Of a DNA stretch of 64,000 nucleotides, positions 55,885 to 58,965 are shown one piece after another. The stretch is from Akkermansia massiliensis. GTDB taxonomy: Bacteria > Verrucomicrobiota > Verrucomicrobiia > Verrucomicrobiales > Akkermansiaceae. The translations under genes and the position numbers were made by a program. The notes beneath the pieces were generated by a model. It was given only the letters and a program-made list of their open reading frames with translations. It was not told where the DNA came from and searched no databases. The stretch covers positions 1,488,001-1,552,000 of the forward strand of contig NZ_JAMGSI010000001.1 in the NCBI RefSeq assembly GCF_023516715.1, read 5' to 3'. The first letter of the stretch is position 1. The number at the start of each line of letters is the position of its first letter.

Positions 55885-55921
55885 AAAAAAGACTGTCTCC
55901 GCCGCAGGAGCGGAGACAGTC
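55885..55921 (-). terminator. Intrinsic terminator of the sugar-nucleotide operon
   Basis: GACTGTCTCCGC / GCGGAGACAGTC, 12-bp stem, followed on the minus strand by TTTTTT (55890-55885). It ends the three-gene operon 34 bp after the epimerase stop codon. Confidence 0.92.
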
Positions 55922-55954
55922 CCTGAATGATGATGAACCGGAAATTCCGGAGAG

Positions 55955-56881
55955 TTACTTGCCCAGAATTCCCTTGAAGTATTCCAGCGTTGTCGCCAGG
56001 CCTTCCGGCAGGGTGTGCTTGGGCTGCCACCCGGCGTTGCGGAGCTTGTCCGCACAGGCGCGGGAATGCTTCACGTCGCCGGCGCGTTCCGGAGCATGGA
56101 GCACCTTGGAGGAGGAACCCGCGGCCTTGATGATGTTCTGCGCCAGTTCTTCAATGGTGATCTGGCCGCCGTACCCGGCATTGAACACGCCGGTGACTTC
56201 CGGATGCTCCGCCACGAAGGTGAGGGCCCCCACGATGTCCTTCACGTAAATGAAGTCGCGCGTCTGGGTGCCGTCGCCGTACACGGTGATGTCTTCTCCC
56301 TTGACGGCTTTTTCAATGAAAATGGGCACCGCGGCGGCATAGGCCCCCTTGGGGTCCTGCCGGGGGCCGAAGACGTTGAAGAAGCGCACGGCGGCCGTGT
56401 TGACCTTGCCTTCCGCCCGGAACATGTTGAGGTAGTATTCCCCGTCCAGCTTGGTGATGGCATAGGGGCTCTTGGGTTCCGGGTACATGGTTTCCAGCTT
56501 GGGCACGGTGGGGTTGTCCCCGTAGATGGCGGCGGAAGACGCCAGCACGATTTTCTTAACCCCGGCGGCGGAAGCTTCCTCCAGCACGTTCAGGAGGCCG
56601 TTGACGTTGATGTCAATGCACTCGCTGATCTTGCTCATGGATTCCGGCACGGAGACGAGCGCGGCCATGTGGAAAATGTAGTCCACGCCCTGCACCGCCT
56701 GGCGAACCAGTTCGCGGTCGCAGATGGAGCCTTCAATGAAGGTGTGCTTGAGCCCGTCCAGGTTCTTGAGGTAGCCCGTGCGCAGGTTGTCCAGCACGCG
56801 GATTTCCTCCGCCTTGTCCTGATAGTGTTCCACAATGTGGGAACCGATGAATCCGGCGCCGCCGGTTACGAGAATCTTCAT
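55955..56881 (-). CDS. GalE-like NAD-dependent UDP-sugar 4-epimerase
   Basis: 308 residues from ATG 56881 (MKILVTGGAGFIG). Extended short-chain dehydrogenase: NAD-binding GGAGFIGSH, catalytic YAITK preceded by the Ser/Thr region LASSAAIYGD, and FNVFGPRQDP, a signature of GalE/WbpP-type epimerases. It probably interconverts UDP-GlcNAc and UDP-GalNAc and/or UDP-Glc and UDP-Gal. Third gene of an operon with a hexosamine-kinase-like protein and an NDP-sugar pyrophosphorylase, consistent with sugar salvage. The terminator lies directly downstream. Confidence 0.88.
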   Translation of the reverse strand: MKILVTGGAGFIGSHIVEHYQDKAEEIRVLDNLRTGYLKNLDGLKHTFIEGSICDRELVRQAVQGVDYIFHMAALVSVPESMSKISECIDINVNGLLNVLEEASAAGVKKIVLASSAAIYGDNPTVPKLETMYPEPKSPYAITKLDGEYYLNMFRAEGKVNTAAVRFFNVFGPRQDPKGAYAAAVPIFIEKAVKGEDITVYGDGTQTRDFIYVKDIVGALTFVAEHPEVTGVFNAGYGGQITIEELAQNIIKAAGSSSKVLHAPERAGDVKHSRACADKLRNAGWQPKHTLPEGLATTLEYFKGILGK

Positions 56882-56909
56882 GTGTTTTTCCGATGTTGGT
56901 AGGTATTGG

Positions 56910-58004
56910 TTAGTAGCGGTCCACAACGGCCTTCATTTCATCCATCTGCGCCTCGATGGATTCCACCAGGGCCATCTGCGTGCGGCAGCGGTCCAGGTTA
57001 TGTTCCGGGCGGTGAATCTTGAAGTACACGTCTCCGGACAGGTAGTCCGTCAGGAAGCGGATGCCGCATTCCATCGTGAGCAGCTTGCCGGAGAACGGCA
57101 GAAGGCTCTTTTCCAGGGGCGTCAGGAAGCTCTTGGCGGAGCTCAGGTAACCTTGAACCAGGGCCTCAAACATGAACATGCGCATCGTGACCTTGGAGAT
57201 GTCCTTTTCATCTTCCGCGGCGGGAGACGTGGCCGTGCGGATCATGTCCCCGAAGTCGTAAATGGCGGAGCCGGGCATCGTAGTGTCCAGGTCGATCACG
57301 CATATGCCTTCCCCGGTCACGTCGTCCAGCATCACGTTGTTCAGCTTGGTGTCGTTGTGCGTGCAGCGCAGGGGCAGTTCGCCGGATTTCAGGTAGTCCA
57401 CCACCAGATGGCAGTCAGCCTCACGGGAAAGGTACCAGTCTATTTCCTTCTGCACTTCCTTCACGCGGCCCAGGGGGTCGGACTGGATGGCTTCTTTCAG
57501 AGCCGCCAGGCGGGAAGTGGTGTTGTGGAAATCGGGGATGGTTTCAAACAGGGGTTCACCGGGAAGGTCCGCCGTGAGCTTCTGGAACTCGCCGAAGGCG
57601 CGCGCCGCTTCCTGGCACTGCCTGGTGGTTTCAATCTGGTCATAAGTGCGTGCGCGTTCAATGAACGGGTACACGCGCCAGCAGTTGCCGTCCGCGTCCA
57701 GGGCGTACGGCTTGCCGTCCACGGAGGGAACCAGCGTGAGGGTGCGGCGGTAGGCTTCCGGGCACTGCTCCTCCTTCAGGCGCTTCAGGGCGTGGTCCGT
57801 CACGCGCTTCACGTTTTCCATCAGGGGGATGGGCTGCTTGAACACGTTATGGTTCACGCGCTGGAGGATGTAGCGGAGGCGCTGCCCCGCCTGGTCCACC
57901 CAGATGCAGTAGGTGTCGTTGATGTGGCCGCTGCCGTAGGAGTAACCGTGGACGAAGTCGCCCCGGAGATCGAACAGGGATGATACAGCCTTGAGATCGT
58001 GCAT
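56910..58004 (-). CDS. N-acetylhexosamine kinase-like phosphotransferase (NahK-like)
   Basis: 364 residues with an aminoglycoside-phosphotransferase fold. The catalytic loop is CTHNDTKLNNVML and the metal-binding Asp lies in VIDLDTTMPG. A glycine-rich nucleotide loop near the start (HGYSYGSGHINDTY) and YILQRVNHNVFK match NahK, which phosphorylates GlcNAc or GalNAc at C1. The operon partners, an NDP-sugar pyrophosphorylase 12 bp upstream and a UDP-sugar epimerase 28 bp downstream, strengthen that reading. The exact sugar specificity is inference. Confidence 0.85.
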   Translation of the reverse strand: MHDLKAVSSLFDLRGDFVHGYSYGSGHINDTYCIWVDQAGQRLRYILQRVNHNVFKQPIPLMENVKRVTDHALKRLKEEQCPEAYRRTLTLVPSVDGKPYALDADGNCWRVYPFIERARTYDQIETTRQCQEAARAFGEFQKLTADLPGEPLFETIPDFHNTTSRLAALKEAIQSDPLGRVKEVQKEIDWYLSREADCHLVVDYLKSGELPLRCTHNDTKLNNVMLDDVTGEGICVIDLDTTMPGSAIYDFGDMIRTATSPAAEDEKDISKVTMRMFMFEALVQGYLSSAKSFLTPLEKSLLPFSGKLLTMECGIRFLTDYLSGDVYFKIHRPEHNLDRCRTQMALVESIEAQMDEMKAVVDRY

Positions 58005-58016
58005 GGGAAAAGAGGC

Positions 58017-58925
58017 TTAGTTGAGCTTTTCAGGGTATACGCCCTGCTTGATGAGTTTGTTGATGCCTTCCACAACCATGGGCTTGTCCCCGGGATAGGT
58101 CATGCCGAACCAGGTGGAGGAGGTGGGAAGAACGGCGCAGTCCGCGCGGTCTTCATGAATCAGGGCGTCCACCACGGTGGGAATGAAGCATTCGCTCTTG
58201 GGTTCCTGGCCGTGTTCCTTCAGGAAGTCAATGAAACGGTCTTCCGTCAGCTCAATAAAGGAGGGGGAGAAGAGCCAGAAGTTCATGGAAACCAGTTCGC
58301 CGGGGTCCACGGGCAGGCGTTCGCCCTTCAGGTTGTTGCCGCGCACCACGCCGTCTTCATCAGCCTGGATTTTCACGAATTCCTCCACGCCGTCCAGCAG
58401 GCCTTCCTTGATGGAGCAGATGCCGCGGTTCACGTCCCCGTTGTCGGAGAGGGTGTTCTTCAGCGGATAGCCGATCATGCCGTAATGGGCCTTCCCGGGT
58501 TCATCCGTGGTGGAGGTCAAGAACTTGGCGGCCTGCACAAAGGCATCCGCCCCGTAAAAGTCATCCGCGTTCACCACGGCAAAGGGTTCCTTTACCACGT
58601 GGCGGGCGGCGCGCAGGGCGTGGGCGGTGCCCCAGGGCTTTTCACGTCCTTCCGGCACGGAAAAGCCTTCAGGCAGGTCGTCCAGGGACTGGAAGGCGTA
58701 ATCCACCTCAATCTTGCCGGCAAAGCGGCTGCCGACCTTTTCCTTGAAAATATCTTCAAAGTCACGGCGGATAATGAATACCACTTTTCCAAAACCGGCC
58801 CGGATGGCATCATAAACAGAATAGTCGAGAACGACTTCACCATTGGGACCCATCGGGTCAAGTTGCTTGAGACCGCCGTAACGGCTACCCATACCAGCTG
58901 CTAAAACAAGAAGTGTAGGCTTCAT
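58017..58925 (-). CDS. NDP-sugar pyrophosphorylase (nucleotidyltransferase)
   Basis: 302 residues. Couples a sugar 1-phosphate to a nucleoside triphosphate. The N-terminal signature LAAGMGSRYGGLKQ is the GxGxR loop of nucleotidyltransferases; KVVFIIRRDFEDIF and VVNADDFYG (metal-binding Asp pair) follow. The C-terminal half has FWLFSPSFIE. It lacks the extended C-terminal beta helix of GlmU, so acetyltransfer is not expected. First gene of the operon, so the hexosamine-1-phosphate made by the kinase is its likely substrate, giving UDP-HexNAc or UDP-Gal/Glc. Confidence 0.88.
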   Translation of the reverse strand: MKPTLLVLAAGMGSRYGGLKQLDPMGPNGEVVLDYSVYDAIRAGFGKVVFIIRRDFEDIFKEKVGSRFAGKIEVDYAFQSLDDLPEGFSVPEGREKPWGTAHALRAARHVVKEPFAVVNADDFYGADAFVQAAKFLTSTTDEPGKAHYGMIGYPLKNTLSDNGDVNRGICSIKEGLLDGVEEFVKIQADEDGVVRGNNLKGERLPVDPGELVSMNFWLFSPSFIELTEDRFIDFLKEHGQEPKSECFIPTVVDALIHEDRADCAVLPTSSTWFGMTYPGDKPMVVEGINKLIKQGVYPEKLN

Positions 58926-58937
58926 AATACGCGGGTC

Positions 58938-58965
58938 ATTATGACCAAGCCTCCCCGTTTGGCAA
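58938..58965 (-). promoter_or_regulatory. Promoter of the sugar-nucleotide operon
   Basis: -35 TTGCCA (58965-58960), 16-bp spacer, -10 CATAAT (58943-58938), 12 nt to the ATG at 58925. The predicted leader is about 5 nt. Confidence 0.55.

Follow-up and report, generated by a model that had tools for sequence, protein, structure and literature searches.

How might a bacterium make its cell wall precursors when the usual enzymes for uridine diphosphate (UDP)-N-acetylglucosamine (UDP-GlcNAc) do not turn up in its genome? The question is raised by a three-gene operon of Akkermansia massiliensis, located on the - strand of a 64,000-nucleotide stretch (NCBI RefSeq assembly GCF_023516715.1, contig NZ_JAMGSI010000001.1, positions 1,488,001 to 1,552,000), here called the window, whose first letter is position 1 in what follows. 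From 5' to 3' the operon encodes a pyrophosphorylase (GalY), a NahK-like kinase and an epimerase. We consider it probable that these genes form a sugar-activation salvage line with a kinase-pyrophosphorylase core, in which N-acetylglucosamine (GlcNAc) and N-acetylgalactosamine (GalNAc) would be converted to their 1-phosphates and then to UDP-N-acetylhexosamines (UDP-HexNAc), bypassing GlmS, GlmM and GlmU. Gene content, gene order, conservation and the absence of the usual enzymes in profile searches are direct observations; the reactions and substrate preferences are inferred from them.

The first gene (58017..58925, - strand, 302 amino acids) encodes a predicted GalY-type sugar-1-phosphate nucleotidylyltransferase, a distant member of the NTP_transferase family (PF00483, 7.5e-6) and the single match of its kind in the source genome (G000). 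Its sole close solved relative is 3pnn from P. gingivalis W83 (6.3e-98, 50% identity), which belongs to the same subfamily and matches the AlphaFold2 model of GalY (pLDDT 91.6) at Z 39.2; 3pnn is catalogued as a conserved domain protein or glycosyltransferase, with no reaction assigned in the entries examined. GalY is not matched by the GlmU model TIGR01173 at E 0.001, lacks an acetyltransferase domain and is not a PF01704 protein, and so differs from GlmU and the eukaryote-type UAP, although the reaction proposed for it, HexNAc 1-phosphate plus uridine triphosphate (UTP), is the same. No MurU or AmgK NCBIfam model matched it; TIGR03992 alone responded, with 26.1 bits where 292.1 are required. 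A 98% identical gene lies near 39 kb in another, one-contig Akkermansia genome, and the A. muciniphila orthologue appears to be Amuc_0031. Papers cited by PMC number were available in part, and statements about them refer to those parts. Amuc_0031 was named galY in 2017 and predicted to replace GalT (PMC5583593); it is very probably the same gene, being an NTP_transferase clustered with galE in GalT-less genomes. A pyrophosphorylase in place of GalT, which the sequence-only reading had put forward, is thus already a published prediction. That paper proposed galactose-1-phosphate as the substrate and the available text does not mention the kinase, whereas here the linkage to NahK and the missing GlmU, GlmS and GlmM point to N-acetylhexosamines. 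A "GalY" is mentioned once in PMC9692976, whose available text does not concern a nucleotidyltransferase.

The second gene (56910..58004, - strand, 364 amino acids) encodes an APH-family protein (PF01636, 1e-16) that is clearly a homologue of NahK, the N-acetylhexosamine 1-kinase. It aligns with B. longum NahK (4wh1) at 4.6e-91 over residues 6-361, nearly its whole length, and the NahK blocks HNDTKLNN and DLDT..PGS...DFGD are kept; no MurU or AmgK NCBIfam model matched it (0 families). A relative from B. theta, BT4240, is 39% identical to B. longum NahK and is a GalNAc 1-kinase required for growth on GalNAc (PMC11992087). The main text of that paper contains no word starting with "UDP", and we found no paper that connects GalNAc-1-phosphate, a uridylyltransferase and UDP-GalNAc in B. 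thetaiotaomicron.

The third gene (55955..56881, - strand, 308 amino acids) encodes a short-chain dehydrogenase/reductase resembling UDP-hexose/HexNAc 4-epimerases, as judged from domain, profile and structure-sequence matches. Its best match is 6wjb (2.9e-62), followed by 4zrm, named UDP-glucose 4-epimerase (8.2e-60); WbgU and WbpP rank lower (about 1e-52 to 1e-51), as do GalE entries including 1lrj (3e-36), which we take to be E. coli GalE. It falls below the GalE equivalog cut-off (TIGR01179, 180.2 against 262.3 bits). Ser273 occupies the position of Tyr299 in E. coli GalE (motif RAGDVKHS against REGDLPAY), and serine stands there in all 27 NahK-linked epimerases found. A small residue at this position is the rule for 4-epimerases that accept UDP-HexNAc, and Ser273 would therefore permit such use, as a necessary feature at most. 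Homology and anatomy support the three enzyme identities of the sequence-only reading.

Conservation was followed in 145 Verrucomicrobiota genomes, 15 of them Akkermansia. GalY is present in 136, including two of only 0.92 Mb, and is therefore not a mucin accessory. NahK is present in 97, namely 96 of the 136 genomes with GalY and one of the nine without it; presence and absence comparisons here and below are uncorrected for kinship, and four of the nine GalY-less genomes belong to one family. GalY lies immediately 5' of NahK in 64 genomes (all 15 Akkermansia and 49 others), a count made with a NahK list that covered 93 of the 97 NahK-positive genomes, so that the layout is not a matter of chance. 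An epimerase gene follows within 300 bp 3' of NahK in 25 of these 64 linked genomes (10 Akkermansia, 15 others) and at 1.3-1.4 kb in two; two further downstream regions were too short to score. Kinase and pyrophosphorylase make up the conserved module, to which the epimerase is an optional addition, and this variability rules out a fixed three-gene operon. Beyond the phylum sample, at least 589 stretches of the named collection encode a GalY relative, and the best 80 of them come mostly from Verrucomicrobiota, Kiritimatiellae, Lentisphaeria and Bacteroidota. Among loci of Akkermansia or Akkermansiaceae, one (L089) has GalY and NahK and no epimerase in 12.2 kb, and two (L090 and L091) have GalY but lack NahK over 12.9 and 6.1 kb, respectively. 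In five divergent Akkermansia genomes (L197-L201), the GalY-NahK pair has no epimerase within about 3.9 kb downstream, and in L081 (G081:C1) the order is rearranged to NahK, epimerase, a second divergent NahK-like gene and GalY.

The source genome has MurA above cut-off, and MurA is matched in 144 of the 145 genomes (124 above cut-off); since MurA uses UDP-GlcNAc, this nucleotide sugar is required. GlmU (TIGR01173) was above cut-off in none of the 145 genomes, while the same search placed 9 of 14 control genomes above it. A match of the GlmU N-domain type, which may include other nucleotidyltransferases, was seen in all nine GalY-less genomes and in 27 of the 136 with GalY. The source genome has a single PF01704 protein, of the UDP-glucose type, and none of the second type. 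These classes, like the GalU ones, were split by E-value and not by a tree (UGP-type below 1e-100; GalU-like, whole-model matches at 1e-28 or better), and on that basis the second type is taken as the UDP-GlcNAc type. Neither a second-type protein nor a GlmU N-type match was found in 31 of the 136 GalY genomes. GalU is above cut-off in 19 genomes, none of them Akkermansia, and the source genome yields three weak matches (best 1.9e-9) below it. The remaining nucleotidyltransferases of the source genome, several of them named by eye, resemble RmlA, ManC, a MurU or mannose-1-phosphate guanylyltransferase-like protein, an aminotransferase fusion, IspD, KdsB and the CMP-sugar type. Three other genomes, G036, G057 and G143, also have MurA above cut-off. 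Their PF00483 matches are one GlgC-like and one ManC-like protein each in G036 and G057 (the GlgC-like open reading frame (ORF) of G036 being named by its match only) and one GlgC-like protein plus GalY in G143; this search missed GalY in G036 and G057, and another divergent enzyme could escape likewise.

In the mechanism we infer for the operon, the NahK-like kinase would phosphorylate free GlcNAc or GalNAc at O1, GalY would join the HexNAc 1-phosphate to UTP to give UDP-GlcNAc or UDP-GalNAc, and the epimerase, where present, would interconvert the two, so that GalNAc could be brought into the GlcNAc pool. Peptidoglycan and lipid A synthesis in Akkermansia would in this way be supplied with UDP-GlcNAc independently of GlmS, GlmM and GlmU, the gene content suggesting that the kinase-pyrophosphorylase pair stands in for these three enzymes. 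A. muciniphila lacks GlmS and requires GlcNAc or GalNAc, and a GlcNAc shortcut with Amuc_1125 as epimerase has been proposed (PMC5902328); it has also been described as lacking GlmS and GlmM, with the remark that an alternative route to UDP-GlcNAc may exist, GlmU absence not being stated in the available text (PMC5814848). A GlcNAc catabolic pathway was not found in Verrucomicrobia in the analysis reported in PMC5583593, and a GalNAc-6-phosphate route is described in PMC12118421. We found neither Amuc_0029 nor Amuc_0030 named in any paper, and the main text of the V. spinosum essential-genome paper does not mention GlmU, GlmM, UDP-GlcNAc or nucleotidyltransferase. The substitution of GlmS, GlmM and GlmU by NahK and GalY is unstated in the titles and abstract openings among the matches listed, which is no proof of its absence from print.

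Two published puzzles would converge on this operon: the making of UDP-GlcNAc without GlmS and GlmM (PMC5814848, PMC5902328) and life without GalT (PMC13313206). If the proposal is true, the dependence of A. muciniphila on amino sugars can be assigned to specific enzymes, and a function is found for a widespread "nucleotidyltransferase". A stronger form of it, which we hold only tentatively, is that Akkermansia makes UDP-GlcNAc chiefly or solely through NahK and GalY, by salvage alone and bypassing GlmS, GlmM and GlmU, and that GalY is an unrecognised GlmU replacement in much of the Verrucomicrobiota, including strongly reduced genomes.

The proposed pathway can be compared with several known systems. 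The bifidobacterial lacto-N-biose/galacto-N-biose pathway consists of LnpA, NahK (LnpB), GalT (LnpC) and GalE (LnpD). The operon shares with it a NahK homologue and a 4-epimerase, but has no phosphorylase among its three genes (the check was confined to these, and no search for GH112 covered the rest of the genome), has a pyrophosphorylase instead of GalT, and belongs to a genome without a GalT match (no PF01087 domain was found in the operon proteins either). The sequence-only reading had made this comparison, and was right about the missing phosphorylase within the operon and the missing classical transferase; the likeness holds for the kinase and epimerase, but replacement of GlmS, GlmM and GlmU fits the whole better. 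In the AmgK/MurU salvage of cell-wall sugars, an APH-family anomeric kinase and an NTP-transferase together yield a UDP-amino sugar. The operon kinase and GalY follow the same logic, but the kinase is of the NahK type and GalY is not MurU, as the lack of MurU and AmgK family matches indicates.

Several observations weigh against assigning the pair to UDP-HexNAc synthesis. With respect to GalY itself, the next relatives by sequence are GalU and not GlmU: a GalY profile aligned with E. coli GalU at E 4e-6 and weakly with the genome's RmlA (1e-4), and gave no useful alignment with E. coli GlmU (E 0.008, probability 5), a comparison of single sequences with a thin GalY alignment that counts as weak evidence. 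In structure, GalU, RmlA, GlmU and PntC are all tied at about Z 22 as the next matches after 3pnn, and structure search was dropped as an arbiter of specificity. Ser273 is no proof of HexNAc use because 4zrm, a UDP-glucose 4-epimerase by name and closer than WbgU or WbpP, also has serine there. With respect to other enzymes, a second-type PF01704 protein occurs in 98 of the 136 GalY genomes, where GalY need not make UDP-GlcNAc; 68 of the 136 lack both GalU-like and UGP-type proteins, and in these GalY may be the maker of UDP-glucose. In the source genome, UDP-GlcNAc could come from the UGP-type enzyme or from L056, which is MurU-like, and the absence of GlmM rests on PMC5814848, no GlmM search having been made among the 145 genomes. 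As for gene order, the epimerase was not found 3' of NahK in 35 of the 64 linked genomes, five of them Akkermansia; among the best 80 named loci, some of which are cut by contig ends, NahK stands beside GalY in only eight and an epimerase lies within 3 kb in four. In the published survey, 15 genomes have galY together with galE and two have it with galMP (PMC5583593). Moreover, in a Bacteroidales locus (L096) GalY is preceded on its own strand by galK (above the TIGR00131 cut-off) and galM (above the PRK11055 cut-off), with one unassigned gene in between, an arrangement that leaves a broad or a galactose role open. GalY is probably broad in its use of sugar 1-phosphates; a broad enzyme fits all the evidence, and a preference for HexNAc fits Akkermansia best.

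Some of these points also bear on the alternative that survives best, namely that GalY is mainly a galactose-1-phosphate uridylyltransferase replacing GalT in an Isselbacher-type variant of the Leloir pathway, with its place beside NahK secondary. The published prediction for Amuc_0031 and the galK and galM genes of L096 speak for it, and GalT and GalY tend to be mutually exclusive: GalT (PF01087) is found in eight of the 145 genomes and in no Akkermansia, that is, in 3 of 136 genomes with GalY against 5 of 9 without it (p 1.3e-5, uncorrected for kinship). We regard it as unlikely, however, since D-galactose inhibits A. muciniphila, a galK mutation relieves the inhibition and a build-up of galactose-1-phosphate has been proposed, while growth is faster when GalNAc supplements GlcNAc (PMC13313206), none of which is expected with an efficient galactose-1-phosphate enzyme. 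The same 2026 paper reported no galT candidate, and "galY" and "Amuc_0031" are absent from its main text. In addition, the partner in the 64 linked genomes is NahK and not GalK, and the two 0.92-Mb genomes retain GalY.

A second alternative makes GalY mainly a UDP-glucose pyrophosphorylase in place of GalU, with the operon serving envelope polysaccharide synthesis. GalU as the profile neighbour and the 68 genomes without a GalU-like or UGP-type enzyme would agree with this, but Akkermansia already has a UGP-type enzyme for UDP-glucose, GalY is retained in 24 of the 25 genomes with such an enzyme, and the partner kinase is by homology a HexNAc kinase, which makes this alternative improbable. 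Least of all do we credit a mucin-specific, mucin-induced catabolic line for energy from GalNAc: although the genus is a mucin user and BT4240 of B. theta sits in a mucin-inducible locus (PMC11992087), GalY is spread over nearly the whole phylum sample, the three-gene order recurs in 15 genomes outside Akkermansia, and an ORF and domain search of the three-gene unit found no glycosidase or transporter gene. For the same reasons of distribution, the claim of the sequence-only reading that mucin GlcNAc and GalNAc are turned straight into UDP-sugars keeps its chemistry, direct conversion still being the best reading, and loses mucin as the reason for the operon. Altogether that reading is partly supported: it had recognised a real operon and the likeliest chemistry, while its mucin framing and its comparison with GalT miss the main point, the salvage route around GlmS, GlmM and GlmU.

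The layout of the operon was confirmed as first described. The gaps between the three same-strand genes are 12 and 28 bp when ATG 56881 is taken as the epimerase start; an alternative TTG start would overlap the kinase gene. The strong terminator proposed downstream was borne out as a hairpin followed by a T-run at 55885..55924 (- strand; -26.8 kcal/mol, z -4.67), with no equally stable structure among 200 shuffles; a simple terminator scan of the region missed it, and a counterpart is seen in the related genome region L070. A single promoter, also proposed, fared less evenly. The pair TTGCCA-16-CATAAT (58938..58965, - strand) is at chance level in the region scan (2 found against 1.7 expected), and with an ORF of the same strand ending 75 bp upstream, read-through into the operon may occur. 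Of 11 Akkermansia loci scored, however, 9 carry a pair of the form TTGCNA-16/17-(C/T)A(T/G)AAT 5' of GalY (four nearly the same sequence, five near-identical loci having been excluded), and 7 of the 11 are clearly better than shuffled sequence (matched by no more than 2.3% of shuffles), which makes this pair a plausible operon promoter. The candidate -10 element ends 12 nt ahead of the GalY start, so that the transcript would be near-leaderless if it is used; within 58926-58965, a true promoter would leave GalY with a leader just a few nucleotides long and no clear Shine-Dalgarno sequence.

Several other genes of the sampled genomes were also noted. The source genome carries two more NahK paralogues (L002, C1:1332861-1333931; L003, C2:730515-731588), which share 50 and 48% identity with the operon copy and closely resemble B. 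longum NahK. One of the NahK copies of G024 contains four in-frame TGA codons, while the operon copy is free of stops in all 15 Akkermansia genomes. An AmgK-like kinase far under cut-off (L001, G000:C1:637652) adjoins an ORF that looks like trpB by eye, and no MurU-like ORF was found in the 3.6 kb examined around it. A 613-amino-acid nucleotidyltransferase-aminotransferase fusion (L057, G000:C1:735869) recalls the PntC-AEPT fusion. The UDP-glucose pyrophosphorylase of the source genome (L069, G000:C1:726628-727875) is closest to 3gue and 2oef (5e-120 to 1e-117), presumably trypanosomatid enzymes, with other eukaryotic UGPs at 2e-89 to 2e-79; its type occurs in 25 of the 145 genomes by E-value, and its sequence relationships would be compatible with a possible old transfer.

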